A program made the translations under genes and the position numbers. Source: Sulfurovum sp. (lineage in GTDB: Bacteria; Campylobacterota; Campylobacteria; Campylobacterales; Sulfurovaceae). Taken from it: a stretch of DNA of 53,395 bases. The notes beneath the pieces were generated by a model, which searched no databases, had not been told where the DNA came from, and saw only the letters and a program-made list of their open reading frames with translations. Shown here piece by piece: positions 5,887 through 37,830 of the stretch. The DNA is taken from contig JAAXPZ010000060.1 in NCBI GenBank assembly GCA_012329065.1, positions 1 to 53,395 on the forward strand, given 5' to 3'. Positions within the stretch are counted from its first letter, which is position 1, and each line of letters begins with the position of its first letter.

Positions 5887-5895
5887 AAAGAGTTT

Positions 5896-6072: not shown

Positions 6073-6135
6073 AGAATTTTCCTTTCGTGTGATACAATTA
6101 ATATCATCCCCATAGGATGAAACCTCACCCTTAAG

Positions 6136-6218
6136 TATAATTTAAAAGTATTACTTTACTATTAGCAGCATTTTTGCTTCATAGTAAAGGGCACCTCTAA
6201 AGCTTCATCAGATATAAT
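6136..6218 (+). promoter_or_regulatory. selAB upstream region: two -10 boxes flanking a hairpin
   Basis: TATAAT occurs at 6136-6141 and 6213-6218. Between them CTTTACTAT (6154-6162) pairs perfectly with ATAGTAAAG (6181-6189), and an inner stem AGCA/TGCT (6164-6167/6175-6178) closes a short loop. If transcription starts after the first box, the hairpin lies in the selAB leader. The second box would bypass it. Confidence 0.45.
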
Positions 6219-6267
6219 AAATCATAAAATATCCAAAAGCCGTGTGCTTTAAACAAAAAGGAACTTC

Positions 6268-9431: not shown

Positions 9432-9432
9432 C

Positions 9433-18506: not shown

Positions 18507-18559
18507 GCCTTTATACCTTTTGCCAACCTATGCCGTTTGTATGCGACATAGGGTTAAAA

Positions 18560-19426: not shown

Positions 19427-19467
19427 TCTTTCTCCTTCTTTCGATTCATACACTAATACTCTTTCAG

Positions 19468-19591: not shown

Positions 19592-20335
19592 TCAGTCACA
19601 CTTCTTCTTGTTTCTTGGCTTCAAAAATAGCTCTTTAAACCTTTCATTTGCAAACTCCTCAATCTCTTGCTGTAGTTGCCTATACCTCTTGATATAATAA
19701 TCCGCATCAGGTGTCAGTGTAGTTCCGCTATTCTCACCCGCTCCTTTCTGAGATACTACAAGTGCATCATCAAGATTCTTTTGTAGTATTTTGATGTGCG
19801 TCCAAGCCTTTTTATAATTCATGCCTAGCATTTTGGATGCTTTTGAGATAGAGCCATGATCTCTAATCAGTTCCAGTATCTCTGTTTTACCTTTGCCAAA
19901 AAGTAGCTCCCCGCCCTCGTTTTCTATCCAGCTTTTTGTCTTGACATAAAGTCGTTTTCTTTTTTTCTCTTTAAAGCAACCAAGCTCACAATAGATAACA
20001 TCAAGCCCACCTTTTTTAATGGCAGTTCTTACTGCCTTTAGATTGGATTTTTTTGCAAGTTCTCTGGCATCCTTACAATAAGTACGGTCCTTATCATCAC
20101 AAGTCTCATGGATATCCTCAAAAACTTCTTCCCTAAACTCACCCAAAGGCTGCTTACCAAACTGCCCTAAGTCACAAGCAGAGATACGCACATCTATCTC
20201 CTTGCTTCGATTGCCAACTTCCATCGGGCTGATACGAAGTTTATGGGCTACCTTAAAGGCACTAGCACAGGTTAGCTTACCATCCTCACACTGATATTTA
20301 TCGATTAGCTCATCCAGCTCTTTTTCTTTAGACAT
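19592..20335 (-). CDS. ModE-like transcriptional regulator with duplicated N-terminal Cys domain
   Basis: A 247-residue protein. The C-terminal third (about residues 145-215) is a ModE/LysR-type winged helix with GSISKASKMLGMNYKKAWTH and GENSGTTLTPDA. There are no molybdate-binding Mop domains after it. Instead the N-terminal 121 residues hold two similar repeats: C16-x6-C23...C54-DLGxF and C79-x7-C87...C116-ELGxF. The repeats suggest a metal or redox sensing module. The start overlaps fdhD by eight bases with GGAGAG upstream. It likely regulates tupABC and perhaps formate genes according to tungsten or redox state. Confidence 0.8.
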   Translation of the reverse strand: MSKEKELDELIDKYQCEDGKLTCASAFKVAHKLRISPMEVGNRSKEIDVRISACDLGQFGKQPLGEFREEVFEDIHETCDDKDRTYCKDARELAKKSNLKAVRTAIKKGGLDVIYCELGCFKEKKRKRLYVKTKSWIENEGGELLFGKGKTEILELIRDHGSISKASKMLGMNYKKAWTHIKILQKNLDDALVVSQKGAGENSGTTLTPDADYYIKRYRQLQQEIEEFANERFKELFLKPRNKKKCD

Positions 20336-21125
20336 AGATTCTCTCCGGTACTGAGTATATATTCATCTTGTTTCCTCTCACAAAGCCAAGCAGTGTCAAG
20401 TCAAAGTGTCTAGCTATATTCACTCCTCTACAGGTTGAGGCTGTTCTTGATGCCAAGATTGGAATCTGATGCATAACAGCTTTTGCCACCATTTCTGAAC
20501 TCAGTCTTCCGCTAACCATCAAAAAACATTTTCTTACATCAACTCCAGCAAGCCTAGCCTTGCCTACTGCTTTGTCTATGGTATTATGCTGAGCTATATC
20601 TTCACCTATAAAATAAGTATTTTCATCAAAATAGACTTTGGCGGTATGTACACAACCAGTCTGTTCATAGAGTGGGCATTGAGTATAGAACTTTGCCATC
20701 TCACAGGAGAGTAACTTTGCTTTGATTCGAAGGTCTGACCTTATAATCCCTGCTTCTATCGCTTTTGGCGAGATATGAGCACTGCTAGCCCTACCGCAGC
20801 CACTCACTATGACACCCTCTAAGTCAAGCCTATCAAGGCTATCTTCAACGATACTTGCTTTAACTATGGCTTCAAAATTTTTCTCTTCTTTTTCTTTGTC
20901 TATTATCTCTATCTTTGTTATATCTTTTACATCTTTTATGATGTTTTCGCTTATGAGATAACCGACAGTGAGCTCTTTGAGGTCAACCCTGACAGCCATC
21001 ATGGCTCCAATTCTCTTGCCATTAACTATTATGGTCAGCTTAACTTCCCTGATGACATTGTCTTCAACTTCGACTTTCTTTCCATCCATTATCTTTGTTA
21101 CTTTTGTCTCAAAAATCGTCCACAT
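20328..21125 (-). CDS. fdhD: FdhD, sulfurtransferase needed for formate dehydrogenase activity
   Basis: A 265-residue FdhD family protein. FdhD passes sulfur from a cysteine desulfurase to the bis-MGD cofactor of formate dehydrogenases. Family segments are visible: LTVGYLISENII near the N-terminal third, GCGRASS, the TGCVHTA motif, AQHNTIDKAVGKA, and the C-terminal VSGRLSSEMVAKA and SRTAST. E. coli FdhD uses a CxxC loop; here the equivalent SGCGRAS has only one Cys. The gene overlaps the regulator gene. A Crp/Fnr-type site and -10 box lie upstream. Confidence 0.95.
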   Translation of the reverse strand: MWTIFETKVTKIMDGKKVEVEDNVIREVKLTIIVNGKRIGAMMAVRVDLKELTVGYLISENIIKDVKDITKIEIIDKEKEEKNFEAIVKASIVEDSLDRLDLEGVIVSGCGRASSAHISPKAIEAGIIRSDLRIKAKLLSCEMAKFYTQCPLYEQTGCVHTAKVYFDENTYFIGEDIAQHNTIDKAVGKARLAGVDVRKCFLMVSGRLSSEMVAKAVMHQIPILASRTASTCRGVNIARHFDLTLLGFVRGNKMNIYSVPERIYV

Positions 21126-21164: not shown

Positions 21165-21206
21165 ATTATAGCATATTTAATTTTCCTAGTTGTCATGTAG
21201 CTGACA
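21165..21206 (-). promoter_or_regulatory. fdhD promoter with Crp/Fnr-type operator
   Basis: The palindrome TGTCA-N6-TGACA at 21191-21206 is centred at 21198.5. A minus-strand TATAAT occupies 21165-21170, giving an expected start near 21158. The palindrome centre then lies about 40.5 bases upstream, the class II activator position. The same palindrome recurs before fdhF with almost the same geometry. Confidence 0.65.
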
Positions 21207-21217
21207 TTTATGTAATA

Positions 21218-21442
21218 TTATTTCTCTATCTTTTCCACTCTATCTATAGGTACATGTTTGTTCTCAAGCAACTTTAATGCCTCTGCGATATCCAAAGTAG
21301 ATAGCTTTAGGCATGATCCGCACTCTGCACTAATATCTCTAGGCACAGTTACCGCATTACAATCAATACCTGCATCCTTGAGTACATTTTCTGCCCATGC
21401 AGTATAGTTGGATGAATAGAACAGTATATAAGTGCTCATCAT
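21218..21442 (-). CDS. Se/S carrier-like protein (DUF3343)
   Basis: A 74-residue protein with the DUF3343 layout: an N-terminal strand (TYILFYSSNYTAWAEN), a middle RDISAECGSCLKLS segment holding two cysteines (CGSC), and a C-terminal helix. Pfam describes the family as putative Se/S carriers, and members often accompany selD or a class V desulfurase. It overlaps the desulfurase gene (ATGA), so the two are translated together. An inferred role is to accept Se or S from the desulfurase and deliver it to SelD or FdhD. Confidence 0.8.
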   Translation of the reverse strand: MMSTYILFYSSNYTAWAENVLKDAGIDCNAVTVPRDISAECGSCLKLSTLDIAEALKLLENKHVPIDRVEKIEK

Positions 21443-22614
21443 CTACACTTAATCTCTTTAAGTGCCTCTATAGCTTTTTCTACTTGCCATAATTCGTTAA
21501 AATAGCTGAAGCTGAACCGAACTGTCCCTGACGGGAAAGTGCCTATTCTTTTGTGTGTCAAAGGTGAGCAGTGCAGTCCCTGTCTACTCATAATATTATA
21601 TTCTTCTGACAGTATCTGAGTGATTGTAGAGCATGGGATATTTTTTATTACAAAACTAACTACAGCTCTTTTGTCTTTTGTAGTGTAAACTTTGAGTCCT
21701 TTTATTTCTCTTGCTCTACTGATAAAATATCTTTTCAGACCATCTTTTTTGTTGCCTATGTCGTTTCCATGCTCCCCTATAAAATCTATGGCTTTACCCA
21801 AAGCAGCAATAGCAGGGACATTGGGTGTGCCACTCTCAAAAATATCTGGCAAAAAAGTAGGCTGAGTAATGGCATCTGATAAGCTTCCTGTGCCCCCTTC
21901 TTTGAGGGGTTTTATTCTCCTATAGTCAAATGAATCGTTGATAATCATAGCCCCTACTCCCATCGGACCCAGCATTGATTTATGCCCAGTGAGACAGAGG
22001 ATATCTATATGTTCTTTGTTGATATCGATATCACAAGAGCCTGCTGATTGTGAGGCATCTACGATAGAAACAATATCATTCTTTCTGCACCACCTACATA
22101 CTTTCAAAAGATTTTGAGTCGCCCCTGTGACATTTGAAGCATGATTGATAACTAAAAGCTTAGTATCACCCCTTCTGGCATCTTCAAGTTCATCAATACT
22201 GATAACACCATTTCTGTTTCCTTGCAGTATATCTACCTCTATGATGCCATCATCCTGAAGCCTCATCAGTGGTCTTATAGTGCTATTGTGCTCAAGAGAT
22301 GTAGTAATGACATGCAAACCTTTGTATGCAAAGCCTTTGATAGCAAGATTGAGTACAGATGTTGCATTCATGTCAAAAATAACACGCATTGGGTTTTCTG
22401 TTCCAAAATATTTAGCTAGCTTCATTCTTGTATCAAAAAGGATTTGTCCTGCCTTGATAGAAAGCTTATGTCCTGATCTTCCTGGATTGGCAGCATAGCC
22501 AATCATACACTCTGACATGGCCTCTATCACTGATAGAGGTTTTGGAAAAGTGCTAGCAGCATTATCAAAATAAATAACATTACTCTCATGCTCTAGTGAT
22601 GAAACAAACATCAT
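21439..22614 (-). CDS. Class V aminotransferase, cysteine desulfurase family
   Basis: A 391-residue PLP enzyme. The PLP lysine is in LTGHKSMLGPMGVGAM, the substrate/PLP segment in HNSTIRPL, and the catalytic Cys in SRQGLHCSPLTH near residue 345. The N-terminus VIYFDNAASTFPKP is typical. The sequence style (SRQGLHCSPLAHKxxGT...GTVRFSF) is that of the EF2568-type desulfurases associated with selenium and molybdenum enzymes rather than housekeeping IscS. Downstream partners are the Se/S carrier-like protein and fdhD, suggesting it supplies S or Se to them. Confidence 0.88.
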   Translation of the reverse strand: MMFVSSLEHESNVIYFDNAASTFPKPLSVIEAMSECMIGYAANPGRSGHKLSIKAGQILFDTRMKLAKYFGTENPMRVIFDMNATSVLNLAIKGFAYKGLHVITTSLEHNSTIRPLMRLQDDGIIEVDILQGNRNGVISIDELEDARRGDTKLLVINHASNVTGATQNLLKVCRWCRKNDIVSIVDASQSAGSCDIDINKEHIDILCLTGHKSMLGPMGVGAMIINDSFDYRRIKPLKEGGTGSLSDAITQPTFLPDIFESGTPNVPAIAALGKAIDFIGEHGNDIGNKKDGLKRYFISRAREIKGLKVYTTKDKRAVVSFVIKNIPCSTITQILSEEYNIMSRQGLHCSPLTHKRIGTFPSGTVRFSFSYFNELWQVEKAIEALKEIKCR

Positions 22615-23484: not shown

Positions 23485-24021
23485 TTATTTGGCTGGACTA
23501 TAAGGAAGTGATGAGTGGTGTACATTTATACGCAAATTTCCCTTGCTGTCTTTGACATACCCAAATGTGTATTCGACCTTTACTTCATCATCTGTGCCTG
23601 CTACTGTAAAAAAGTAGTTGCCCATAGCAACAGCTGAATCACTATCTGTAATGATTCCTGCACTCTCAAATCTTACTTTACTCCAAGGCTTAATCGCAAA
23701 TCCATGATCTTCTTTTTCCACACCTTTTACAAAATATGAGAGTGCATTTTTTGGTGTTTCTCTAAACTGCTTATTGGCAGCTAGTGTAGGCTTAAATAGC
23801 ACAGTACCATTCTTGTAATTATAGAGAGTGTCAAGAGTTTTTTGTGCCTCTGCTACATAATCACCTTTATCTGTATAGGCTTTGCCGATTGCGACAATAG
23901 CATTTCCCCAGCTTTTTTGTGCATCTACAACTTCGCTCTTAGTGATTCCAGACCCAGCATTCGCAACTGATAGAGTACATAAACTTAATGCTGTAACAGC
24001 TAATATCTTCATTTTCTTCAT
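23485..24021 (-). CDS. Periplasmic NTF2-like protein of unknown function
   Basis: A 178-residue protein with a Sec signal peptide cut after VANA. The mature part begins with a helix (TKSEVVDAQKSWGNAIVAIGKAY) and then alternates strands with AMGNYFFTVAGT and KVEYTFGYVKDSKGNLRI. This is the layout of NTF2/SnoaL-like proteins and the CaMKII-association-domain group found in proteobacterial periplasms. Such proteins are sometimes mislabelled phosphoribosyl-AMP cyclohydrolase. No catalytic residues can be assigned. It stands alone upstream of the peroxiredoxin. Confidence 0.7.
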   Translation of the reverse strand: MKKMKILAVTALSLCTLSVANAGSGITKSEVVDAQKSWGNAIVAIGKAYTDKGDYVAEAQKTLDTLYNYKNGTVLFKPTLAANKQFRETPKNALSYFVKGVEKEDHGFAIKPWSKVRFESAGIITDSDSAVAMGNYFFTVAGTDDEVKVEYTFGYVKDSKGNLRINVHHSSLPYSPAK

Positions 24022-24262: not shown

Positions 24263-25111
24263 CTACTCTGCCATGTCTGGCTTGTGAGACATAAAGCCAA
24301 GAACACCTACAAAAAACAAACCACCAACAATATTACCCAGTGTTACGGGAACTAGATTGCTAACCAAAAATCCTTGTATATTGAGGTTACCCAACTTTTC
24401 AACAGTTGTCTTGCCTAGTTGTGCCACGCTCTCGAGAGTAGCTCCATCTATAGCAAGATAGTGTGCTTTTGCTATAAGTGCTTCAGTAATGATAAACATA
24501 TTGGCAACGCAGTGCTCATAACCAGAGCCAACAAACGCCGCTATTAAGAACATAATCCCTAATATCTTTCCAGCTGTATCTTTTGCTGCAATTGCTGTCC
24601 AGATAGCCATACAAACAAAGACATTACAAAAGATTCCTCTTATAAATGCTTCCATGAAACTCAAAGATGTTTTAGCAGCTCCAAGACCGACAAACATTTT
24701 CAATATAGCACCTTCATATTTTCCACCTGGCAATCCAGATTCATAGTACATATATGCTAGTAAAACAGAACCAACAAAGTTGAAAATAAAGACAATTACC
24801 CAATAGTTGATCATTTTTCCATATGATAATTTATGTTCTATAGCAGTAACTCCAGACAATATGGAACCAGTAAAGAGATGTCCTCCAAAGAAAACAACCA
24901 TCATAAGTCCCGTGGAGAAGGCAATACCTCCAACAAAGTTTTTAATCCCTGGGGTTTCTATACCCACAGTTGCATGTGCCCAAAATATATCGCCCATTGC
25001 GATTGATCCACCTGCCATAATAGCAAGCATAATAACACTCATCATAGGCATATTCGCCTTATGTCCAGATCCTCCTGATACCGCTTTTGCGGCTTCTGCT
25101 GGTGATAACAT
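24263..25111 (-). CDS. focA: Formate channel/transporter (FocA-type FNT protein)
   Basis: A 282-residue member of the formate/nitrite transporter family with six membrane helices. FNT features include MAGGSIAMGDIFW, the GGIAFSTGLMMVVFFGGHLFTG helix break, LYAYM-type helix 3, and NVFVCMAIW in helix 4. Start ATG has AGGAG upstream. It is the last gene of the formate hydrogenlyase operon, three bases after the protease gene, as E. coli places focB after hyf. It probably moves formate into or out of the cytoplasm for FdhF. Confidence 0.95.
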   Translation of the reverse strand: MLSPAEAAKAVSGGSGHKANMPMMSVIMLAIMAGGSIAMGDIFWAHATVGIETPGIKNFVGGIAFSTGLMMVVFFGGHLFTGSILSGVTAIEHKLSYGKMINYWVIVFIFNFVGSVLLAYMYYESGLPGGKYEGAILKMFVGLGAAKTSLSFMEAFIRGIFCNVFVCMAIWTAIAAKDTAGKILGIMFLIAAFVGSGYEHCVANMFIITEALIAKAHYLAIDGATLESVAQLGKTTVEKLGNLNIQGFLVSNLVPVTLGNIVGGLFFVGVLGFMSHKPDMAE

Positions 25112-25114
25112 ATT

Positions 25115-25582
25115 TTACTCCTCTTTCTTTTCTTTATTTGCATCGAAAATATCATCTATTTCTCTAAGCTTGTCCAGTGCCTTTACAGCTGTCTCTTTTG
25201 CTTCTTTGGAAAGCTCTGGATTGATCTCAAGTATATTTTCGATATCTACATTAAGTCCTAAAAATAGAACCGCCTCACAAAATCCTCTAAGATAACTTAG
25301 AAGTATTGGCATCGGGAGATTATGGGTTGTGTACATATAGTCCCTATCATCACTGATGTCTATTACCTCTACACTACCCACCTTCATACCAGTCATAGCA
25401 TCTGCTACAACCACTAGGTCGGGTGCATATTCTCTAATGGCATGAAATTCGCTCTCTGGCGTATCTTCTCCATATAATACTTTCCAGTCAAAATCCTCCT
25501 TTTCTATGAGATTTCCAAGATATGGTGCAACACCATCATCTCCTCTAAGTGGGTTACCTACTACAAGAATAGCTTTTTTCAT
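25115..25582 (-). CDS. hycI: Hydrogenase maturation endopeptidase (HycI-like)
   Basis: A 155-residue protease of the HycI/HyaD family that trims the C-terminus of the nickel-loaded large subunit. The N-terminus AILVVGNPLRGDDGVAPYL and the downstream DAMTGMKVGSVEVID match the family, with acidic Ni contacts at Asp in GDDG and in VVADAM. ATG 25580-25582 with AAGGAAG upstream is preferred over an earlier in-frame start. Its substrate HyfG in this operon retains the expected tail. It overlaps the preceding gene slightly. Confidence 0.92.
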   Translation of the reverse strand: MKKAILVVGNPLRGDDGVAPYLGNLIEKEDFDWKVLYGEDTPESEFHAIREYAPDLVVVADAMTGMKVGSVEVIDISDDRDYMYTTHNLPMPILLSYLRGFCEAVLFLGLNVDIENILEINPELSKEAKETAVKALDKLREIDDIFDANKEKKEE

Positions 25583-25932
25583 ATAGGCTTCCTTATAACG
25601 ATATACCCCTCTTTTAGCGAACATATAAGATCTTTTAGCTTGCTCTCATACATATCTTTTTCCAGTTTCTGAGCATGCTCTCTATATATTTCTATCTCAA
25701 AATATTTTGTCAAATTTCCTAGCTTGAATTGGGTATATTCTCCAGATTTTTTGACAACATCCATATATTCATCTTCTTCTATATCCATAACCTTCTCTAC
25801 AAAATCAACCGTTCCTATCCCATGACCCACTGAGGCACAAAAAGTTTTGACCTGTTCCAGATGTTTAGGTAACTTCTTGGAGGGGTCAATCCTTCTTTGG
25901 GTTAGTCTACAAATCTCAACTATAGACTTCAT
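25579..25932 (-). CDS. HycH/HyfJ-like formate hydrogenlyase maturation protein
   Basis: A 117-residue protein whose centre [19 protein letters not shown] parallels the YSLAIGHHLGVIDCLE region of E. coli HycH. The C-terminus EGYIVIRKP resembles its IYLMVRRL ending. HycH is needed for hydrogenase 3 maturation in E. coli, with an ill-defined role. Position between the small subunit and the protease supports this. The protein is somewhat shorter than HycH (136). Confidence 0.7.
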
Positions 25933-26764
25933 CTATCTCTTCTTGTGTGAAACATATATTTTCTTTAGTAGTATCAATATTCTTATATGTCTTTAAATGC
26001 CTAAGATAAACATCGTTGTGCATTGTCTGTAAACACTCTCTGTATCTAGGATCTGGCTCATCCTCAATAGCATCTTCGATTGCTTTTTTGCTTACAACTG
26101 GGTTATAGATATCAGTAGATTCTTTGATAGCATTTATATATTTTTTATACAGTATTCTTCCATGTAAATATGCCATCAATACTTTTGATTTAGCTAGTAA
26201 ATCTCTCTCAAAGAGTGTATTTCCAAACAGTGAACTCTCAATTTTTGGAGATTCATCTCCTCCATCAACATTCTCTTTGAGCTTTAGTCTCTGCTCTAAT
26301 ACGCCTAGTCCAGTAGCAAGCCCATAAATAGTAGTAGCAGGATGCGGAGGACAGCCTGGGATCCACACATCAACAGGGATCACCTTGTCTATGCCTCCCC
26401 ATGTGCTATAGCTATCATGAAATATGCCTCCTGTCGAACCACAAGCCCCATATGCAATCACAATCTTTGGATCTGGTGCTGCCTCAAATGCTCTTAGGAG
26501 AGGATAATACATATGCCTAGTCAAGGGACCAGTACATAAGAGTATATCAGCGTGTCTAGGGTTTGCCACAAGCTTAAAACCAAACCTCTCAGGATCCCAC
26601 ATAGGGGTAATGGAGGCAAATATCTCAATCTCACATCCATTGCAAGAGCCACAATCTATCCTATAGACAGAGAAGCTTCTCTTGATATCCTTGAGGAGCT
26701 GTAGCTTATGTTCCACCTTGTTTAAGTCAGTTATCTCTTTGGGAACTATGTATCCTTTACTCAT
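25916..26764 (-). CDS. hyfI: Group 4 [NiFe]-hydrogenase small subunit (HyfI/HycG-like)
   Basis: A 282-residue NuoB-like Fe-S subunit carrying the proximal [4Fe-4S] cluster. Ligands are in [13 protein letters not shown] near residue 40, [14 protein letters not shown] and the C-terminal PGCPPHP motif. After about residue 160 there is a roughly 110-residue hydrophilic extension ([15 protein letters not shown]...) longer than in E. coli HycG. It transfers electrons from the ferredoxin-type subunits to the Ni-Fe subunit HyfG. It overlaps both neighbours by a few bases. Confidence 0.95.
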
Positions 26765-27303
26765 CTTACAACTCCTCCTTTATAGAAATGGCCTACCACT
26801 AAGCCTACTGATTCCTCTTTTTTGCATGTTGGGCAGGTTTTTATATAAACGGCTTTGTGATCAATCTGCTCTTTGCTCCAGCCAACATTTATAAAGTTTT
26901 CAATACAGTATGCAATCAATCTTTTAGTGGTAAAATTCACATTGCATCTTACACAAGCCTGCAACTCAAGTTCACCTGTTTCTATCAAATCTTCTTTGTT
27001 AAGCCTAACCGCTGTCTCAAAATTGTCGCCCAAGGCAACTGCACCAGTAGGACAAACTTCATCACATCTACCGCAGTAAATACATCTACCGCAATCAAAT
27101 TTCCAAACAAGCTTATCTTTAGCTTCGTTTAGCTGAACATTCATAGCATTTGATGGGCAGGCAACTGCACAAGCTGTGCAACCTATACATAGTTCATATG
27201 TATACTCTGGCTTCCCCCTAAATCCCTCGGCAACTTCGTATGGAGCAAAGGGATATTCATGCGTAGCATTTCCATATTTCCTCGTCATGTCTAATAGTTT
27301 CAT
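26761..27303 (-). CDS. hyfH: Ferredoxin-type hydrogenase subunit (HyfH/HycF-like)
   Basis: A 180-residue NuoI-like protein with two [4Fe-4S] motifs: [12 protein letters not shown] near residue 41 and [15 protein letters not shown] near residue 75. Two further CxxC pairs (CVRCN and CPTCKK) appear in the C-terminal third, as in HycF. It is predicted to wire electrons from the FdhF/HyfA side to the NiFe subunits. ATG is preceded by AGGAG, ten bases after hyfG. Confidence 0.94.
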
Positions 27304-27312
27304 GCTTTGCTC

Positions 27313-29067
27313 CTATATATCTTTTAGTGGCGAATGTTTAAGAGTTTGTGAATACTTCTTAAGATCGCTATGAGTCAAGACCTTTGACCTCTTTGACTTA
27401 ACATCAACTACTGTCACCCTGTCCGTACAAGAATAACAAGGATCCATAGAACAGACGATCAATGCTGCGTCTGCTATAGTATTGCCTCTAAACTGAAATC
27501 TCAAGGATGGCCAGTTGTTGTATGTCGCCGCTCTACATCTCCATCTAAATACCTTTTGTGCACTGCCATGCTGTATCCAGTGGATATTTTCACCTCTTGG
27601 TGCCTCGTTGTTTGCTAGTGCGTAAGCTTGAGGAATGATTCTTTTGTTGTGATTTGTAATGATACTGCCAGCTGGCATTATCTCAAAACATTGTCTAATA
27701 ATAGAGATAGACTCCAAAAGTTCCTTGTACCTTACCCATTCTCTTGCGTATACATCACAGCCTTCTTCAACAGCCACTTCATACTCTATAGCATCATGGA
27801 AGTCATAAGGATGATCATATCTTGTGTCTCTTTTAAACCCTGACCCTCTGATGTTTGGCCCAACTGCTGAAAAGTCTCTAGCAACTTGCCTGTCAAGAAT
27901 ACCAACACCTTTCCATCTAGAAACCTGAGAATCATCTTCCATGACTGCTTCCCACACTTCTTTGAGCTGAGTTTCCATAGTCTGCAAAAGCTCTAGACCT
28001 TTTCTGATCTCTTTAGCAGAGATATCCCTTCGCATACCTCCCACCACAACATTGCCATAAGTTTTTCTACCACCTGAGACTAGCTGTGCAAGTTCCATGG
28101 AAAACTCACGGATTCTAAATATATGCATAAATGCATTGATATTGCCCGTAACTTCACATGCCAAACCGATATTGAGCATATGAGAGTGAAGCCGCTCTAT
28201 CTCCTGATTGATGATCCTGATAGCTTGGGCTCTTCTTGGTATCTCCATGTCTATTGCTCTCTCAGCAGCTTCTATACAAGCAGTAGCATGTGCATATCCA
28301 CAGATACCACAAACTCTCTCTGCGAGAAAGCCCATTTGATCATAACTCATCCTGTTCTCTGCTAGTTTCTCCATGCCTCTATGCTGATAAAAAAGTCTAT
28401 AATCAGCATCTATAATAGTGTCGCCATCGCAGTAAAGCCTAAAGTGTCCAGGTTCATCACTAGTGATATGCAAAGGACCTAGAGGAACATCGATCAAACC
28501 CTCTCCTTCTGGATGTAAAAACTTATACTCAGGCTCATCTGCATGATCTACAGGATCTGGTCTATAGTTATATTCCATAGCATCTTTTCTCATAGGAAAC
28601 AGATCGTCAGGCCAATCATCTGAGAGAACAAGTCTCCTAGGATCTGGTAGCCCTTCTGCGACAAGACCTAGCATGTCATAAGCTTCTCTCTCGTACCATA
28701 CAGCTGCTGGAACTAGTCTTGTGACAGATGGATAGCACGGATCAGTCGCTGGAATATAAGCCTTGACTGTTATCCAACATTTGTCTTCTGCTGGTAGCTC
28801 ATCATCATATGACATTTTGCCACCCTCCATAGAGAGTGCATAGTAAAGGGTATAATTACCGTTTATCTGCCTCTCATCATTTGGCACCATAGTTGAGAGC
28901 CATCCACCCATATCATAGTAGAGCATTCTTACAGTCTCTGGTAAGTCAGCCCTATCCACTGTAATAGTAATCTGCTCTTCTGGCATTCTACTAACATCTA
29001 ATATCTTTATTTTCTCTTTTAACTTATTTATAAAGATATCACCTTTTTTATTCATTTTATCATTCAT
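27313..29067 (-). CDS. hyfG: Group 4 [NiFe]-hydrogenase large subunit (HyfG/HycE-like)
   Basis: A 584-residue fusion of a NuoC-like N-terminal domain (residues about 1-180, PRRLVLSDDWPDD) and a NuoD-like Ni-Fe domain. Nickel ligands are in RVCGICGYAH (near residue 255) and DPCYSCTDR (near residue 545). After CTDR a tail of about 32 residues starting VTVVDVKSK matches the HycE tail that HycI removes, so it is a precursor. This is the proton-reducing catalytic subunit of a formate hydrogenlyase-type complex at the cytoplasmic face of the membrane. Confidence 0.97.
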   Translation of the reverse strand: MNDKMNKKGDIFINKLKEKIKILDVSRMPEEQITITVDRADLPETVRMLYYDMGGWLSTMVPNDERQINGNYTLYYALSMEGGKMSYDDELPAEDKCWITVKAYIPATDPCYPSVTRLVPAAVWYEREAYDMLGLVAEGLPDPRRLVLSDDWPDDLFPMRKDAMEYNYRPDPVDHADEPEYKFLHPEGEGLIDVPLGPLHITSDEPGHFRLYCDGDTIIDADYRLFYQHRGMEKLAENRMSYDQMGFLAERVCGICGYAHATACIEAAERAIDMEIPRRAQAIRIINQEIERLHSHMLNIGLACEVTGNINAFMHIFRIREFSMELAQLVSGGRKTYGNVVVGGMRRDISAKEIRKGLELLQTMETQLKEVWEAVMEDDSQVSRWKGVGILDRQVARDFSAVGPNIRGSGFKRDTRYDHPYDFHDAIEYEVAVEEGCDVYAREWVRYKELLESISIIRQCFEIMPAGSIITNHNKRIIPQAYALANNEAPRGENIHWIQHGSAQKVFRWRCRAATYNNWPSLRFQFRGNTIADAALIVCSMDPCYSCTDRVTVVDVKSKRSKVLTHSDLKKYSQTLKHSPLKDI

Positions 29068-29077
29068 ATAGATCTCC

Positions 29078-30562
29078 TTATATTCCCACTACAATTTTTG
29101 TAGCGTTGTTAAGTAGTGATATCCAGCTGTCTATGGAGAAGATACCGAAAACAATCACCAATACAGCCAGTGCGATAAGAGGGAGATTTGCACTTAACTC
29201 AACTTCTTTTGATAGAATCTCTCCTTTTGGTTCACCAAACATAATGTCGTTAAAGTGAGAAAAGATACCGATAAAGACAATAGCAAGCCCGATTATAAAT
29301 AAAGCTACTGCTACATACTGTCCAATCCCAAGTCCTGCCTTGATCATCATAAACTCACTTGCAAATATTGCCAGTGGTGGCACACCTGCCAATGAACAAA
29401 TAGCTATACCAAAAAGTACTGCTGTCACAGGTGCTACTTTTACTAGTCCACCCATTTTTCTCATATCTCTTGTCCCATATATCTTGATGATATTGCCACT
29501 TGCACAGAAAGCTAATGCTTTTGTCAACGAGTGAGTCAATGAGTGAAATAGTCCTGCAAAAATACCGAGAGGCCCTCCGATACCAAAGCCGAATGCTATG
29601 ATACCAATATGTTCAACTGAGTGATAAGCAAACATTCTCTTGACATCATGCTGTCTAAGTATAAAGAGTGCTGCCACAAAAATCGTAATCAGTGATATGA
29701 TCAACATTAGGTTTTGAACATACTCAAAGCCTACCATTGAATTGCCTACTAGCCCGTAAAATCTTATAATCGCTAACATGGCACATTTTAAAAGTACTGC
29801 TGAGAGCATAGCTGAAGCTGGAGAAGGTCCCTCCGAGTGAACATCGGGCAACCATGTATGTGTTGGAGCGAGTCCAGCTTTTGTACCATAACCAATAAGT
29901 GCAAATACAAATACCAGCTTGAGCGCATCTGGATCTATAAGCTTCGCATTGTCCATCAATGATGTCCAGAGCATCGCATTATGACCATCACCTATCACGG
30001 CATGACCTGCACCATAGAGCAAAATAGTTGCGTATAGTGCAAAAGCCAAGCCGATACTACAGATAACTATATATTTCCATCCACTCTCTGTAGATCTTTT
30101 TCCTTTATGCAGGGCGACCATAAAGACCGAAGACAGTGTAGTTGCTTCTACAGCTGCCCACATCACGGCCATATTGTTCGCCAAAACTGACAAGGTCATA
30201 GTAAATAGGAATATATGAGAAAGAACATAAAATAATTTCACATCCTTTACTCCTATATCCCCTTTTTTTACCTCCCATTGCATATACTTGACAGAATACA
30301 TATTGATAAGTACTCCAGTAACAGCAATAAGAGTCAAAAAGACACCGCCCAAAGAATCTATAAACAATATATCTCCAAAGACAAAGTATCTTTCACCATC
30401 AAGCACATTTGAAATAATCATCAACGCAACAACTGAAGAGGCAATTGAACCAATTAAATGAACCAAGCCTAGCTTCTTCTCATCAGTTGGCAAAAACCAA
30501 AGTAGTGCTGCAAATCCCAATGGTACAACAAGTACCAATATCATTAAAAACTGAATACTCAT
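29078..30562 (-). CDS. hyfF: Antiporter-like hydrogenase membrane subunit (HyfF-like)
   Basis: A 494-residue NuoN/MrpD-type protein with about 14 hydrophobic segments. Conserved features include AVEATTLSSVFMVALHK in the N-terminal half, GYGTKAGLAPTHTWLPDVHSEGPSPASAML with the discontinuous-helix lysine, and HSVEHIGIIAFG with its histidine. Such subunits may couple hydrogen evolution to ion translocation. It follows hyfE at eight bases. The closest E. coli type is HyfF rather than HycC. Confidence 0.92.
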   Translation of the reverse strand: MSIQFLMILVLVVPLGFAALLWFLPTDEKKLGLVHLIGSIASSVVALMIISNVLDGERYFVFGDILFIDSLGGVFLTLIAVTGVLINMYSVKYMQWEVKKGDIGVKDVKLFYVLSHIFLFTMTLSVLANNMAVMWAAVEATTLSSVFMVALHKGKRSTESGWKYIVICSIGLAFALYATILLYGAGHAVIGDGHNAMLWTSLMDNAKLIDPDALKLVFVFALIGYGTKAGLAPTHTWLPDVHSEGPSPASAMLSAVLLKCAMLAIIRFYGLVGNSMVGFEYVQNLMLIISLITIFVAALFILRQHDVKRMFAYHSVEHIGIIAFGFGIGGPLGIFAGLFHSLTHSLTKALAFCASGNIIKIYGTRDMRKMGGLVKVAPVTAVLFGIAICSLAGVPPLAIFASEFMMIKAGLGIGQYVAVALFIIGLAIVFIGIFSHFNDIMFGEPKGEILSKEVELSANLPLIALAVLVIVFGIFSIDSWISLLNNATKIVVGI

Positions 30563-30570
30563 AAGACCAC

Positions 30571-31215
30571 CTAACCTTTCAACTCTGATGCCTTAGAGAC
30601 ATCTAGAGAACCAAAATATTTAAAAAATCTTGTTGCAAGTATCGACATAATAATCACAGCAAATATAGCATCTGTCAGGATACCAATCTCAACAATTCCT
30701 GGTGAATTGTAAGCAGTTAGTGCCAGTGTCAAATGAATACCATTTTCAAATGTACAAAAGGCCAAAATCTGCTTAACTGCCGACTTTCTCAAAATAAAGC
30801 CAAAAATTCCCAACATAAATACTGTAATCGCAGCTATCAGAGGAATATGCTCCTGAATGAGCGAGAACTTGAGATATATAGGGTATAGGCTCATAGCTAT
30901 TGCCAAGGAAAAACCAAGTGCAATAATTGGGCTTACAAAAAACCCTGCCACAGGCTCAACTTCACTTTCTATGTCTATCTTTTTCAAAAGTCTAAATAGA
31001 ATATATGGCACAAAAAGAACCTTGGTAAACAGTGCAACTATCGCCCAAGAAAAAAGCGGTCCTGCATCATGACTGATAGATAGTGTCAAGAATATAAGAA
31101 CCAATATAAAAGCTTGTACAACATAAGCTGAAACAGCCAATTTGTAATTTCTCAATCCAAATACCGCCAACGCTACAACTATCATAGCAACGGATAAAAA
31201 ACTTAATACATCCAT
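30571..31215 (-). CDS. hyfE: NuoK/MrpC-like hydrogenase membrane subunit (HyfE-like)
   Basis: A 214-residue membrane protein with about seven hydrophobic segments. It includes FCTFENGIHLTLALTAY (the HyfE/NuoK-like glutamate region) and GILTDAIFAVIIMSILATRFF. HyfE is found in Hyf (FHL-2) complexes but not in the smaller Hyc complex of E. coli, so its presence types this operon as Hyf-like. It lies one base from hyfC. Confidence 0.9.
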   Translation of the reverse strand: MDVLSFLSVAMIVVALAVFGLRNYKLAVSAYVVQAFILVLIFLTLSISHDAGPLFSWAIVALFTKVLFVPYILFRLLKKIDIESEVEPVAGFFVSPIIALGFSLAIAMSLYPIYLKFSLIQEHIPLIAAITVFMLGIFGFILRKSAVKQILAFCTFENGIHLTLALTAYNSPGIVEIGILTDAIFAVIIMSILATRFFKYFGSLDVSKASELKG

Positions 31216-31216
31216 C

Positions 31217-32143
31217 TTACACTCCTACTATATACAATACAAGTGCTACAACAGATATACTAAGTGCTGCTGTTGCATTTGACTTAAAGCCAGAAAGAAG
31301 CTTGTATCTTGCGCCAAAATTGTCGATAAATACAGCTGCTACATAAAATACACCTGCTTTGACTAAAAATACTATCAATGCCAAGAAAGGATGCTCAAGA
31401 CCAAAGTTCCATGGCTGGAAGATAGTAATAAACAGACCTATCATAGCAAATTGTTTCAGTATAAGTGCTGCCTGAGCTATACCAAAATCACTTCCTGAGT
31501 ATTCACCCAACACACCTTCTTGAAGCTCTTGCTCTGCTTCAGCTAAGTCATAAGGATTTCTTCCGCTTTCAACATACATTGCCCAAAGGAAAGAGATAGA
31601 TGCCACTGCATATGCGGGCATAAAGAATCCAACCTCACCATTAAGAACCATCTGCTGAATAACTACTAGATTAGAAGTTCCTGCCAGTAGCATAACTACC
31701 AAAAGGCTTATAATCAAAACTGGTTCTACAAAAACACCTATCATCTGTTCCCTACTGCCGCCAACAGCCGCAAAAGGGTTACCTGAATCTATAGAGGCTA
31801 CACCAAAAACAAACTTCAAAAGTGCCGCTAGATATACCAAAACAAATATATCGGCATATCCTACAGACTCTAATCCTCCATAGGTAATCGGCATTGCTGC
31901 CAGCATTGCTGCACCTGTTGCGTATAAAAAGAATGGTGCATATGTGAAAAACCAATGTGCACACCTTGGTGCAGTCCTAGATCTCTTGTATAGCTTTATA
32001 ATATCTCTATATGTCTGGAAAAAGTCTGGTGGACCTTTTCTTGACTGGAGTCTCGCTCTCAAAACTCTTGCTATTCCATCAAACAATGGAGCAGCTAGAG
32101 CAATCATAACTACTTGAAAAATCATCCAAAATAAAATTGTCAT
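31217..32143 (-). CDS. hyfC: NuoH-like hydrogenase membrane subunit (HyfC/HycD-like)
   Basis: A 308-residue protein with about eight membrane segments. Family motifs are RARLQSRKGPPDFFQTYRDI near residue 30, FAAVGGSREQMIGVFVEP near residue 125, and DLAEAEQELQEGVLGEYSG near residue 195, the acidic loop of NuoH/HycD proteins. It anchors the catalytic arm to the membrane. It is 12 bases downstream of hyfB. Confidence 0.95.
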   Translation of the reverse strand: MTILFWMIFQVVMIALAAPLFDGIARVLRARLQSRKGPPDFFQTYRDIIKLYKRSRTAPRCAHWFFTYAPFFLYATGAAMLAAMPITYGGLESVGYADIFVLVYLAALLKFVFGVASIDSGNPFAAVGGSREQMIGVFVEPVLIISLLVVMLLAGTSNLVVIQQMVLNGEVGFFMPAYAVASISFLWAMYVESGRNPYDLAEAEQELQEGVLGEYSGSDFGIAQAALILKQFAMIGLFITIFQPWNFGLEHPFLALIVFLVKAGVFYVAAVFIDNFGARYKLLSGFKSNATAALSISVVALVLYIVGV

Positions 32144-32155
32144 AATCTGCCTCCT

Positions 32156-34120
32156 TTACTTGACATGGCTTATGCCCAAAAAGAAAAACAGGGCAACTAA
32201 GATATATGCAGTATAGAGATTTGAATTTCCATTTTGCATTTTTTCGATTTTATCTGACATCTTTGACACAAAATTGATTACTGGGGCATACAAAGCATCC
32301 CACCAGATATCTCTTGCGTGGTTAGAATATTTGACTGGCTTAAAATAACCCTGATCTTCATAATGAATATCTGCTTTAAATAGCCAATTCATAAGTCTTC
32401 TCAAGTCACCAGTAAATGGAGATGCTGTCATTTGCATCCTAGAGCTATACTTAAATCCACAGGCCCATGGGTCTGTTTTTCTTGGCTTATCTCTGTTTGC
32501 CTTAAAAACAATAAGGGTAACAAAAGGTAACATCAAAGATCCAAGAAGTATAAGTGATATAAATGGTGTAGATACTATAGATCCCAAAGGTGATTTGACT
32601 GCCATACCATCAGTAGAAACAAAGCTTCCGCCCGTAAAACCAGTCACAACACTCATGATCTGTTCAACTACCACATTTGCACCCAAACCAAAGGCAAAAC
32701 ATCCGACAACCAATATAAACATACCAGCAATCATAGAAACAGGAACTTCTCTGGCATTTTCCCAAATCTTCTCATCTCTTGGAGTTCCGCCAAATATAAC
32801 CGTATATACTTTCACAAAACACATAACAGCCAAAGCGCCCGTAAGGGCTAGTGCCACTATAGAGACGGTAAATACAGTCCTAGAACTAACACCCTCACCC
32901 ATCGCACCCTGTATCAATGCCTGATAAGTAACCCACTCACTCATAAATCCATTTAATGGAGGAAGAGCCGTGATTGCCATAGAGCCGACTAAAAATGCAA
33001 ATGCCGTATAAGGCATCTTTCTAGCAAGACCGCCTAAAACTTCCATGTCTTTTGTGTGAGTAGTGTATAAAACACTACCTGCTCCCAAAAAGAGTAGACC
33101 TTTGAAAGTAGCATGGTTAAGTATATGGAACATTCCACCTAAAAAACCAACAGCTGCCAAGACAGGTGAACCTGATGCCATACCATACACTCCAGTACCG
33201 ATACCAAGTAAAATAATTCCTATGTTTTCAACTGAAGAATAAGCCAACAATGCCTTATAATCATGTTGAGTCAGAGCATACAGAATGCCTAGAAGTGCAG
33301 AGATAGCTCCGATTGTAATAATCAAAAGACCCCACCACTCCATGACAGGAAGCCATAAGCAGAATTTTATAATCCCAAACAAGGCAACCTTGATCATAAC
33401 ACCACTCATGAGTGCTGATACATTTGAAGGTGCTGCTGGGTGAGCTTTTGGTAGCCACACATGCATAGGAAACATTCCTGCTTTTGAACCAAATCCGATA
33501 AATGCCAACAAAAAGATAGCTGTTGCCATTCCAGCTGAGAGATCTACATTTGCAAACGATGCAAAATCAAGAGAACCACTCTGTCCTGCCAGCAATAAAA
33601 ATGCCGTGAGTATCATCGCTCCACCGAGGTGAGCTATACCCATATATATAATAGTTGCTCTCATGGACTGCTTGGAGTCATTAAAGCATATCAAAAAGTA
33701 CGAAACCACTGTCATAACTTCCCAAAATATCATAAACCAGAAAACATTCGCTGCTGCAATAACCAATAACATAGAGACTATAAAAAGGTTATAAAGCATA
33801 GCCATTACAGCCAAGCTGCCTTTTTTTGCATACTCTTGTGAATACTGAATTGCATATACTGATGCTGCAAATGCTATGAGACATATAACAAACGAAAAGA
33901 AATTTCCTATGGGGTCTAGTACAAAATGGGGATTAAAAAGAAAATCATTTCCAAAATTCATTTCACTAGTAACACCTAAGTTACTAAGAAAATAAATTAT
34001 ACCGTACAAAGAAGAGACCGCAGCAATACTAAAACCAACTTTTGCTGCAAGCTCATTCTTTTTGTACAATAAGATGGAAACGACACAGCCTACTAAAAAT
34101 AGTAAATACACTTGTGCCAT
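32156..34120 (-). CDS. hyfB: Antiporter-like hydrogenase membrane subunit (HyfB/HycC-like)
   Basis: A 654-residue NuoL-like protein with about 16 membrane segments. MIFWEVMTVVSYFLICF carries the conserved glutamate of transmembrane helix 5. GFGSKAGMFPMHVWLPKAHPAAPSNVSALMSGVMIK holds the functional lysines, and SSVENIGIILLG and HILNHATFKGLLFL follow. The C-terminal WACGFKYSSRMQMTASPF segment is typical of HycC/HyfB. No HyfD homologue follows, so there are two antiporter-like subunits here versus three in E. coli Hyf. Confidence 0.93.
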   Translation of the reverse strand: MAQVYLLFLVGCVVSILLYKKNELAAKVGFSIAAVSSLYGIIYFLSNLGVTSEMNFGNDFLFNPHFVLDPIGNFFSFVICLIAFAASVYAIQYSQEYAKKGSLAVMAMLYNLFIVSMLLVIAAANVFWFMIFWEVMTVVSYFLICFNDSKQSMRATIIYMGIAHLGGAMILTAFLLLAGQSGSLDFASFANVDLSAGMATAIFLLAFIGFGSKAGMFPMHVWLPKAHPAAPSNVSALMSGVMIKVALFGIIKFCLWLPVMEWWGLLIITIGAISALLGILYALTQHDYKALLAYSSVENIGIILLGIGTGVYGMASGSPVLAAVGFLGGMFHILNHATFKGLLFLGAGSVLYTTHTKDMEVLGGLARKMPYTAFAFLVGSMAITALPPLNGFMSEWVTYQALIQGAMGEGVSSRTVFTVSIVALALTGALAVMCFVKVYTVIFGGTPRDEKIWENAREVPVSMIAGMFILVVGCFAFGLGANVVVEQIMSVVTGFTGGSFVSTDGMAVKSPLGSIVSTPFISLILLGSLMLPFVTLIVFKANRDKPRKTDPWACGFKYSSRMQMTASPFTGDLRRLMNWLFKADIHYEDQGYFKPVKYSNHARDIWWDALYAPVINFVSKMSDKIEKMQNGNSNLYTAYILVALFFFLGISHVK

Positions 34121-34130
34121 TTCTGGTCCT

Positions 34131-34709
34131 TTATCTAGTGCTACTAGCTCTGTTGTCTATGTAAGCACTCACAGAATCATGCGCCTTTTGGGAAACTACT
34201 TGCCCGTCCATTACAGATCCATCCATTATGATTAATGCGCCCGTTGGGCACACCTCTACACACGCTGGTCCACCATCTCTGCCAGTACAAAGGTCACATT
34301 TGACTGCTACACTTTTGCTGCCTATGACTGATTCTAGCCCCAGATTGTAGTCTGGAATAATTGCATAATCAATAGACGGCATGATCTCAGCTTCAGCTCT
34401 AATCGCACCGAATGGACAAGCAAGTGTACACATCTTGCAGCCAATGCAAATCTCTTCATAGCTCTCGATAAAGTCATCGCCAAATCTCAAGGCTCCCACT
34501 GGGCAAACATTAGCACAAGGAGAGTCATCACATTGACGACACTGATTTGGCATAACGCCATTTGGACTTCTAGTCACTATTAGTCTTGGTACTGCTAGCT
34601 TGCCTCTCTCAAATGCTGACTGATAACATCCAGCCATGCAGGTTGCACAACCGATACAAATATCTGGGTTTGCTATAACAAATTTGTTAATTCCTCTTGA
34701 TAAATTCAT
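34131..34709 (-). CDS. hyfA: Electron-transfer Fe-S subunit (HyfA/HycB-like)
   Basis: A 192-residue polyferredoxin with four [4Fe-4S] motifs: CIGCATCMAGCY, CRQCDDSPCANVCP, CIGCKMCTLACP, and CDLCTGRDGGPACVEVCP. It matches HycB/HyfA, which takes electrons from FdhF and hands them to the hydrogenase arm. It overlaps the fdhF stop by four bases. The N-terminus has no Tat signal, so the complex is cytoplasmic. Confidence 0.94.
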   Translation of the reverse strand: MNLSRGINKFVIANPDICIGCATCMAGCYQSAFERGKLAVPRLIVTRSPNGVMPNQCRQCDDSPCANVCPVGALRFGDDFIESYEEICIGCKMCTLACPFGAIRAEAEIMPSIDYAIIPDYNLGLESVIGSKSVAVKCDLCTGRDGGPACVEVCPTGALIIMDGSVMDGQVVSQKAHDSVSAYIDNRASSTR

Positions 34710-36970
34710 GATGACACCTCCGCTACTGGTATTGCTTGTCTTGCTTGTCTATAAAGCTCAGATGGATGCATGAGTTGATCGTCTTCGATACGAATCTCTT
34801 TAAACTCTTTTTCATCTATCTTTCTTATACCTGCTATAGTCATTTTAACTGGGTTCATTTTAGAGAACGGGCATTGATCTTCTGCATTTGCAAGTTTATT
34901 GGCATCTGCTTCAGCATAGTGGAATGTTGTAAAGATTGTATTTTCCACCATATTTGGAGTTACCAGTACTTTCGCAGCAATCTTGCCTCTTTTGTTTTCT
35001 ACAACTGCGTAATCTCCAGTTTTTATACCTGTTCTCTCAGCGATATCTGTACTTATTTCTATAACTGCCCCCATGATATCCGCACCAAACTCAAGAGCGT
35101 TACACTCTCTTGTCATAGTACCCGTATGATAATGATAAACTTTTCTACCTGTTGTCATCATACAAGGGCTTATTTTGGTTGGTTTTTCACTCATAGTTCC
35201 GCATCCTACAGGATAACCTTCTGGCATATTAAGCTCTTCTGCTGTCTTTTTCTCAAAAGCAATTCTCTCTTCTTTGCCATCAACATAGCCGATAGGAATG
35301 AGTTTGAACTTCCCGTCTGGATGGAATGATTTGAAGTCTGTATACTGTATAGGAGTTCCAGGATGCTCTTCATCTGGACATGGCCAAGCTAACAACTCTC
35401 TATTTTTAATTCTCTCATATGTGATACCGCCAAACTGAGCTGGAGCCATAAGTCTTACTTCATCCCATACTTCTTTTGGTGTACGGAAATCAAAGCCATA
35501 AAGATCTATTCTCTTGGCAATCTCACATATTACTTGCCAATCAGGCATGAGTCCTTCAGCTGGTTCTATAGCTTTTGGAAGATATTGAACACATCTTGAT
35601 GTATTTAAGAATGTACCCTCTTTTTCAGTCCAGCAAGCTGCAGGAAGCACAACATCTGCAATCTGAGCAGTCTCAGTCAAGAAAATATCTTGCACAATGA
35701 ATGTGTCAAGTTCTGAACACGCATGTATAAAGTGGTGCGTATCAGGATCGCTCATCACAGGATTTTCACCAAAGACATAGAGAAGTTTGACTTCACCTTT
35801 TTCTATATTTTCTGGCAAATCTGTCATGGTATATCCGACTTCAGAGTTCAAGTTGCATTTCCAAATATTTTTGGCTTGTTTTTGAGCATTATCTGTCATA
35901 ACCCATCCACCAGGGATAACATGTGGCAAGGCACCCATATCACAAGCACCCTGAACATTGTTTTGTCCCCTTAGTGGGTTTATCCCAGTACCAGGTCTTC
36001 CTATCTGCCCAGTAATGAGTGCTAGATTGGAGATAGCGAAGATATTTGAAGTACCATCAACAAACTGAGTCATACCCATAGTATAAGCAAATGATGCTGC
36101 TGGTACTTTGGCATAAAGTTCTGCAACTTCTCTAACTACTGAGGCTTTTATGCCAGTCTCTTCTTCAACTCTTTCAGGAGTGAAGTCTTTTACACAATGC
36201 TTAACATATTCAAAACCTACACAATTGTCATCGATAAACTTTTGATTATGCAAACCTTTTTTGATGATGTGATTCATCATAGCGTTAAGTAATGGGATAT
36301 TGTAACCTACAGGAATCTGTAAATAATAATCGGCTTTTTTGGCCATATCAGTTTTTCTAGGATCGATTACTACTAATTTCGCTCCTCTTTTCATGCCTCG
36401 TAACATTTGCATAGCAATGATAGGGTGGCACTCGCTTGTATTTGTTCCCATACAGAAAATTAAATCTGAATCTGTCGCAAACTCTGTTAAATTATTCGTC
36501 ATGGTTCCAGCACCTAATGTATTAGTCAGACCGACTACTGTTGGACCATGTCAGAGACGAGCACAGTGATCTACGTTATTTGAACCTTGTACTCTAAATA
36601 ATTTTTGGAAGATATAGTTATCTTCGTTTAGACATCTTGCTGATGAGAATCCCATGATATGATTAGGGCTGTGCTCTGCGACTACTCTTTTCATCCTGCT
36701 TGCAGCAAAATCTAATGCCTCATCCCAGCTTACTTCCTCCAATTTACCATCTTTAGAAAAAACACCTTCTTTTTTTCTAATGAGTGGCTTTGTCAATCTT
36801 CTTGGGGAATGTACATATTCCCAGCCATACATACCTTTGAGGCACAGCTCACCATCGTTGATAGGGTGTTTTTCAGTTGGCTCAGCTTTGACAATTTTGT
36901 TATTTTCAACAAAAAGGTCAATATTACATCCGGTCCCACAATAAGGACAGACTGTTTGAAACTTTTCCAT
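34706..36970 (-). CDS. fdhF: Cytoplasmic selenocysteine formate dehydrogenase H-type (FdhF)
   Basis: Two open stretches of one frame (36551-36970 and 34706-36550) are joined through TGA 36551-36553. The protein is 754 residues with Sec140, the position Sec has in E. coli FdhF, in CARL-U-HGPTV; E. coli has CARV-U-HGPSV. A [4Fe-4S] motif CPYCGTGCNI begins at residue 7. The bis-pterin domains and the C-terminal molydopterin-binding fold (GTMTRECNALEFGAD, GDYAVVENKRGKI) follow. It lacks a Tat signal. It oxidises formate and feeds the hydrogenase encoded downstream. A good SECIS hairpin lies just after the UGA. Tungsten is a likely metal given tupABC. Confidence 0.96.
36523..36537 (-). promoter_or_regulatory. 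SECIS hairpin of fdhF
   Basis: Stem TAGTC/GACTA with loop GGTCT. The loop covers bases 21-25 counted from the U of UGA, the same place and sequence as the GGUCU loop of the E. coli fdhF SECIS bound by SelB. Confidence 0.85.
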
Positions 36971-37015: not shown

Positions 37016-37058
37016 ATTATATTGGTATCAAAGAAGAAAACATGTCAGCTATGTGACA
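37016..37058 (-). promoter_or_regulatory. fdhF/hyf operon promoter with Crp/Fnr-type operator
   Basis: TGTCA-GCTATG-TGACA (37043-37058) is centred at 37050.5. A minus-strand TATAAT lies at 37016-37021, so transcription should begin near 37009. The operator centre is then 41.5 bases upstream, the standard class II position for Crp/Fnr activators. The regulator gene at 37180-37830 is immediately upstream. Confidence 0.75.
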
Positions 37059-37179: not shown

Positions 37180-37830
37180 CTAAGCAAGCTCTCTCTTTAG
37201 TGCAACAATGTCTTTTATCAAATATTTAGTGTAGTCAATTTTATCTAGCAAGCCATCTTCCATAAGCACATGGAGTACAGCTGAGATAGTTTGTCTTTTG
37301 GAGGCTATAAAATCTGAAAGCTCGCCTATATTCATTGTTAAGTCTATGAGTATGCCATTATCCTGTTTGCTACCTACTGTATTTGCAATATCTAACATAA
37401 AAGATATAACTCTTTTTTTGCAATCGTTAAAAACAAGTGTCTTGATGATTCCTCTCTCTATCTCCAAGCTTTTCACCATAGAGGCGAGTATAAGGTTGGA
37501 AAATTGAACATTTTCAAACAGTCTAGAAAAGACTTTTGCGTCTAAGACATACAGTTCACTCTCAGAACTAAACTCTATAGTGCTATTTTCTTCCAATACA
37601 AAAATGCTATTTGCACCAAGATTATATAGTGTAAAAGACTCCCCATCATCAAAAAAAACCACTTTGGCTCTACCATTTTTGAAAATAAACAACTGGATGC
37701 CTAATGAAGGATTATAATATAGTATGTTGCCTTTTTGGAAAGTTTTTATTTTGAGTGAGTCGATAGTTTCTGGAGAAAGAATATTTTTGATATCAAAACT
37801 TTCTGGCTTAATTCGACAAGAATTCATCAT
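37180..37830 (-). CDS. Crp/Fnr-family transcriptional regulator
   Basis: A 216-residue protein with an N-terminal cyclic-nucleotide-binding-like beta roll (residues about 25-120, GNILYYNPSLGIQLFIFKNG). A dimerisation helix and a Crp-type helix-turn-helix follow, with MNIGELSDFIASKRQTISAVL near residue 170. It lacks the N-terminal Cys cluster of Fnr, so it is not a classic [4Fe-4S] oxygen sensor. The sensed signal is unknown. It sits 209 bases upstream of fdhF in the same orientation, and its product is the obvious candidate to bind the TGTCA-N6-TGACA sites before fdhF and fdhD. Confidence 0.88.
   Translation of the reverse strand: MMNSCRIKPESFDIKNILSPETIDSLKIKTFQKGNILYYNPSLGIQLFIFKNGRAKVVFFDDGESFTLYNLGANSIFVLEENSTIEFSSESELYVLDAKVFSRLFENVQFSNLILASMVKSLEIERGIIKTLVFNDCKKRVISFMLDIANTVGSKQDNGILIDLTMNIGELSDFIASKRQTISAVLHVLMEDGLLDKIDYTKYLIKDIVALKRELA

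Follow-up and report, generated by a model that had tools for sequence, protein, structure and literature searches.

A CooA-related regulator and probable class II operators at formate hydrogenlyase genes of Sulfurovum and other Campylobacterota

Results

We analyzed a stretch of 53,395 nt from Sulfurovum sp. (contig JAAXPZ010000060.1), referred to as the window, that carries a formate hydrogenlyase cluster on its minus strand. The cluster begins with fdhF (34706–36970), encoding formate dehydrogenase H with an in-frame TGA for selenocysteine at codon 140 (36551–36553), and continues with hydrogenase-4-type genes (25916–34709) in the order hyfA, B, C, E, F, G, H, I, lettered by order and by similarity to known hyf sets. 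A hycI-like hydrogenase maturation protease gene (25115–25624), named from similarity and place, is followed by the final gene of the cluster, which encodes a formate channel of the FocA/FNT family (24263–25111). Downstream of the channel gene, positions 23485–24021 gave a match to metal-independent carbonic anhydrase at 134.7 bits, below the cut-off of 350; a candidate CO2-handling enzyme would make sense beside a CO2-releasing complex. The window also holds selD, selA, selB and a cysteine-desulfurase/selenocysteine-lyase-like gene (4676–9431 and 21439–22614), and thus has these together with the selenocysteine gene fdhF. On the other side of fdhF, and on the same strand, lies the gene for a Crp/Fnr-family protein of 216 aa (37180–37830), here called the regulator. 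A second minus-strand locus comprises fdhD (20328–21125), encoding the sulfurtransferase needed for formate dehydrogenase, an overlapping gene for a ModE-like molybdate/tungstate-responsive regulator (19592–20335) and, downstream after a gap of 138 nt, tupABC for a tungstate transporter (16792–19453).

A pattern search of the window for TGTCA-N6-TGACA returned two exact matches and no others. One, TGTCACATAGCTGACA, precedes fdhF/hyf (37043–37058, minus strand) and the other, TGTCAGCTACATGACA, precedes fdhD (21191–21206, minus strand), both as reported in the initial annotation. A TATAAT -10 box lies 21 nt past the first (37016–37021, minus strand) and 20 nt past the second (21165–21170, minus strand). 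With starts predicted at the usual 7 nt past the -10 box (37009 and 21158), the operator centers fall at -41.5 for fdhF and -40.5 for fdhD, which agrees with the placement of about 41 bases, and the class II activator geometry, that had been proposed. Class II promoters of E. coli CRP and FNR have a dimer site near -41.5 and no separate -35 box. The same layout, relative to predicted starts, is seen at the window sites: neither promoter has an independent -35 box 17 nt from its -10 box, and the promoters therefore look activator-dependent. When up to two mismatches were allowed and TAnnnT was sought at 20–22 nt, the only window sites upstream of genes were again those of fdhF and fdhD.

As a bare motif, the palindrome is close to chance. 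Six exact copies occur genome-wide vs. four of a reversed control pattern; three of the six are intragenic and one precedes an unrelated pair of small genes. For one-mismatch matches in the window, at least three were reached in 47 of 100 shuffles, making the window count uninformative. Since the bare motif is not enriched, conservation must decide on the operator. We therefore turned to other Campylobacterota, taking 13 fdhF/hyf promoters that represent about ten genera, and in an unbiased scan scored every five-base inverted repeat (1,024 in all) at each of 13 spacings (13,312 combinations). Over these promoters, which come from related genomes and so are not fully independent, TGTCA at a spacing of 6 ranked first of the 13,312, being exact in 8 of 13 and within one mismatch in 11 of 13; the runner-up combinations were AT-rich repeats with at most 4 exact occurrences. 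The exact palindrome lies between the regulator gene and fdhF/hyf in Sulfurovum, Arcobacter/Malaciobacter and Sulfurospirillum, and palindromes with one or two mismatches take this place in a divergent Sulfurospirillum-family genome (G233) and in Nautilia types (our reading of family f4), where the sites are degenerate. In Campylobacter-type genomes, the palindrome stands in front of hyfA, without mismatch in G326 and G467, with one in G275 and two in G376.

The distance to the -10 box is constrained as well, the box beginning exactly 21 nt past the palindrome in nearly all of these promoters. When 22 sites were aligned on the palindrome, agreement with the -10 box showed a sharp peak at 21 nt, with a mean of 4.5 of 6 letters, whereas shuffles reached a mean of no more than 3.41 at any offset; TAnnnT stands at 21 nt in 18 of the 22. 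A combined pattern of palindrome, 21 nt and TAnnnT, searched in 15 genomes, gave exact matches in two settings only, the fdhF/hyf locus and the region upstream of fdhD, with one hyf-locus match (G293) facing the regulator gene itself; the window fdhD site, having a 20-nt spacer, is outside this pattern by design. The concern named in the initial annotation, that the motif might be equally common in non-promoter DNA, is justified for the bare palindrome; it is conservation and geometry, and not the count in one genome, that give the operator its statistical support.

Sites at other genes differ among lineages. The fdhD palindrome recurs in Sulfurovum sp. NORP77 (G069; L121, 2034), which belongs to the same family as the window genome; it was not found in the other regulator-bearing genomes, with none outside Sulfurovaceae, or in three same-genus genomes that lack the regulator. 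In a Nautilia-type genome (G177), sites at 9426–9441 and 13238–13253 of L205 precede wtpA, for a WtpA-type tungstate transporter, and a formate channel gene; at both, the -10 box follows after exactly 21 nt. In a Campylobacterales MAG, the regulator gene itself carries an exact site in its promoter, followed by TATAAT after 21 nt, and adjoins a molybdate/tungstate-type transporter. The pairing of formate hydrogenlyase with metal supply thus recurs through different genes in each lineage, and therefore supports a real regulon. Two Arcobacter-type genomes share an identical exact palindrome, TGTCATTAGTATGACA, between a PAS-domain sensor gene and dcuB, which encodes an anaerobic C4-dicarboxylate transporter (L128, 2027–2042; L129, 1990–2005). 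Toward the sensor gene, this palindrome lacks the 21-nt/-41.5 layout, and we left it uncounted as a regulon site.

Within Sulfurovaceae, orthologues of the regulator were present in 2 of 175 genomes, the window genome and NORP77, and the same two of 175 have a full-length HyfG orthologue. Orthologues on contigs were recovered with an alignment query; a single-protein query gave none. In a phylum sample of 397 genomes, the regulator was found in 52, Hyf in 75 and both in 48, leaving 27 of the 75 Hyf-bearing genomes outside the regulator set. The regulator adjoins fdhF/hyf in Arcobacter/Malaciobacter, Sulfurospirillum, Nautilia-type and Campylobacter-type genomes. That the motif tracks the regulator across genomes, a check named in the initial annotation, was borne out at fdhF/hyf, where sites occur with the regulator, and at fdhD, whose site is missing from the regulator-less members of the genus. 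In the Sulfurospirillum family, matches from regulator-less Hyf genomes are at the level of the second HyfG copy seen in S. diekertiae; the regulator is linked to the putative fdhF-hyf type and not to every Hyf. Two types of Hyf were observed, one near fdhF and/or the regulator and a second copy 72–73% identical to the window HyfG. Sulfurospirillum diekertiae (G372), G528, G334 and G467 have two HyfG genes each, and many Sulfurospirillum-family genomes have the second copy only and no regulator. This second copy may be the one meant in published claims of a Sulfurospirillum Hyf without formate proteins.

The regulator has a C-terminal Crp-type helix-turn-helix (PF13545, 36.8 bits; cut-off 27). 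Its N-terminal beta-roll of the cNMP type scored 20.1 bits with PF00027, below the cut-off of 27.5, but the AlphaFold model (pLDDT 86) matches the CooA and Crp folds. CooA is the first fold match; TM-scores to CooA and Crp are only about 0.5 and rmsd is high, consistent with a different domain orientation. From the single sequence, the closest solved relatives are CooA proteins (2.7e-18, vs. 3.6e-9 for NtcA), and a family profile gave CooA at E = 1.1e-33 vs. 2.5e-13 for the next family, CprK. A small tree with few, long-branched outgroups joined the Campylobacterota regulators and CooA with support of 90/90. By sequence, profile, fold and tree, the regulator groups with CooA and not with generic Crp/Fnr proteins. 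The recognition helix (SKRQTISAVL in the window protein) reads R-Q-T/S in the regulator family and in CooA, and R-E-T in E. coli CRP. A CooA-type operator pattern, TGTC(A/G)-N6-(T/C)GACA, fits the window sites; the published CooA consensus is TGTCGGCNNGCCGACA (PMC545781).

The heme ligands of CooA include His77, the N-terminal Pro2 and, in the ferric form, Cys75. In the ferrous form, a histidine and Pro2 serve as ligands (PMC9670170). The window protein has no heme histidine: the position of His77 is Glu, that of Cys75 is Val, and residue 2 is Met and not Pro. At the His77 position, nearly all hyf-linked orthologues have Glu or Asp and one has Asn; only two, both of the Nautilia type, keep His, and the MAG orthologue beside the transporter has Tyr. 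The Cys75 position is Val or Ile. The protein's only cysteines are Cys5 and Cys137, neither of them universal among orthologues, and the four-cysteine [4Fe-4S] set of FNR is absent, as the initial annotation had noted for the Crp/Fnr-family protein beside fdhF. Nautilia-type genomes also have a second CooA-like branch adjoining a rhodanese-like gene (L049, L051, L052, L057), some members of which have cysteines close to where the heme ligand would be. In G179, the predicted start of the divergent gene is overlapped by an exact palindrome.

Other control systems were sought in the genome. No sigma-54 activator was found, the best AAA+ matches being to frames about the size of Clp proteins and not exceeding 33 bits, and no -24/-12 element was found before fdhF. 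To the extent that the assembly is complete, FhlA-type control can therefore be ruled out in this genome, which upholds the proposal of control in place of FhlA/sigma-54. Two further Crp-type helix-turn-helix proteins have recognition helices TVRHVVDRHI and TPETLSRILT, neither with RQT. CO dehydrogenase was not detected in the genome, which has no match to PF03063 (prismane/CO-dehydrogenase family), and control of CO dehydrogenase genes, a mark of CooA, thus has no counterpart here. In relatives, PF03063 matches are frames of 444–516 aa; CO dehydrogenases are longer, and from frame length we take these matches as putative hybrid-cluster proteins.

Discussion

We consider it probable, at roughly 85%, that both palindromes are class II activator sites of the CooA-related regulator, which would switch on formate hydrogenlyase and FdhD. 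From the sites, their geometry and conservation, the co-occurrence, the CooA kinship and the loss of the heme histidine, all read in the sequence, we infer binding, activation and operon extent along the following lines. The active regulator dimer would bind TGTCA-N6-TGACA at 41.5 (fdhF/hyf) or 40.5 (fdhD) bases before the start, cover the -35 position and bring RNA polymerase to a promoter with a -10 box but without a separate -35 element. Recruitment would turn on formate hydrogenlyase, comprising the selenocysteine FdhF, the Hyf hydrogenase and the formate channel, and in the window lineage FdhD as well, possibly with the ModE-like and tungstate-uptake genes behind fdhD. The earlier proposal of a formate hydrogenlyase regulon under the adjacent Crp/Fnr protein is, at the level of sequence, strongly supported by co-occurrence, conserved adjacency and the fixed -41.5 geometry. 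To it are added the regulator's CooA membership, a fdhD site common to one other Sulfurovaceae genome only, and the Nautilia-type sites at formate channel and tungstate transporter genes.

Crp/Fnr proteins can also act as repressors, and a regulator bound across the -35 position could block polymerase until a signal releases it, as the overlap of the site with that position would allow. We regard repression as unlikely, since the center is fixed at the class II activator position of -41.5 in nearly all promoters, the promoters look activator-dependent in having no independent -35 box 17 nt from the -10 box, and the regulator's own promoter in one MAG shares the layout. Lower still stands a true CooA that controls formate hydrogenlyase as a working CO sensor through heme. 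CooA is the nearest relative and the operators are alike (PMC545781), and Nautilia-type orthologues keep the ligand histidine; against this, the window protein carries Glu, Val and a residue other than Pro at the three ligand-associated positions, and a prismane/CO-dehydrogenase family protein was not found in the genome. The missing heme ligands and the missing CO dehydrogenase together make CooA-type CO sensing via heme unlikely in the window organism. It is slightly more improbable again that one of the two further Crp-type proteins binds the sites and the neighboring gene is a bystander, given that the helices of those proteins differ and that the sites follow the neighboring regulator from genome to genome, being absent at fdhD where it is absent. 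Chance palindromes, or TGACA as a plain -35 box, can be dismissed in spite of a motif count near chance, because both half-sites are conserved across genera and TGACA ends 21 nt from the -10 box, where a -35 box would leave a gap of about 17 nt.

Taking activation by the CooA-related regulator as our reading, we see about even odds for a wider history. A CooA branch in Campylobacterota may have lost the heme-ligand histidine and gained a signal other than CO (formate, redox state or lack of an electron acceptor), while keeping the operator type and the link to an H2-evolving hydrogenase. With the fuel changed from CO to formate, it may now be dedicated, throughout the phylum, to regulating formate hydrogenlyase and its tungsten/molybdenum supply.

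In Sulfurospirillum, ArcAB and Fnr are reported to be absent, and the hyf cluster of S. multivorans was described without a formate-sensitive regulator (PMC5357620). A review has called for more data on the control of respiration in Campylobacterota (PMC6682613). In the open-access literature, we found no published formate hydrogenlyase regulator or CooA relative from this phylum. For the control of H2-evolving hydrogenases in Campylobacterota, the analysis supplies a candidate regulator, its operator and a precise promoter layout that is testable in culturable species such as Sulfurospirillum diekertiae and S. arcachonense. CooA relatives, some of which keep the heme histidine while others lack it, also form a natural series on how a gas sensor's signal can change while its DNA site is kept.

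Among known systems, CooA of Rhodospirillum rubrum, Carboxydothermus hydrogenoformans and Desulfovibrio has the same RQT helix, a 16-bp operator of the TGTC-N8-GACA kind as at the window sites (PMC545781), and control over a membrane-bound H2-evolving hydrogenase, as proposed for the window regulator. In contrast to CooA, the regulator's proposed targets are formate hydrogenlyase genes and not CO dehydrogenase, the histidine ligand is replaced by Glu or Asp in most members while Cys75 and Pro2 are absent, and the fifth half-site base is mostly A, not G. HcpR is likewise a Crp/Fnr-type regulator of anaerobic metabolism that often adjoins its target (PMC545781), but its operators are of the TTGTGA-N6-TCACAA or TTTGACC types and its targets are others. 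FhlA with sigma-54 in E. coli controls the same type of enzyme (FdhF with hydrogenase-3/4), whereas here a one-component Crp-type protein would do so, with no sigma-54 activator and no -24/-12 box. The promoters of E. coli CRP and FNR resemble those of the window in placing the dimer site near -41.5 with no separate -35, but their half-sites are TGTGA or TTGAT vs. TGTCA here, the helix is RET vs. RQT, and the regulator lacks the Fe-S cysteines.
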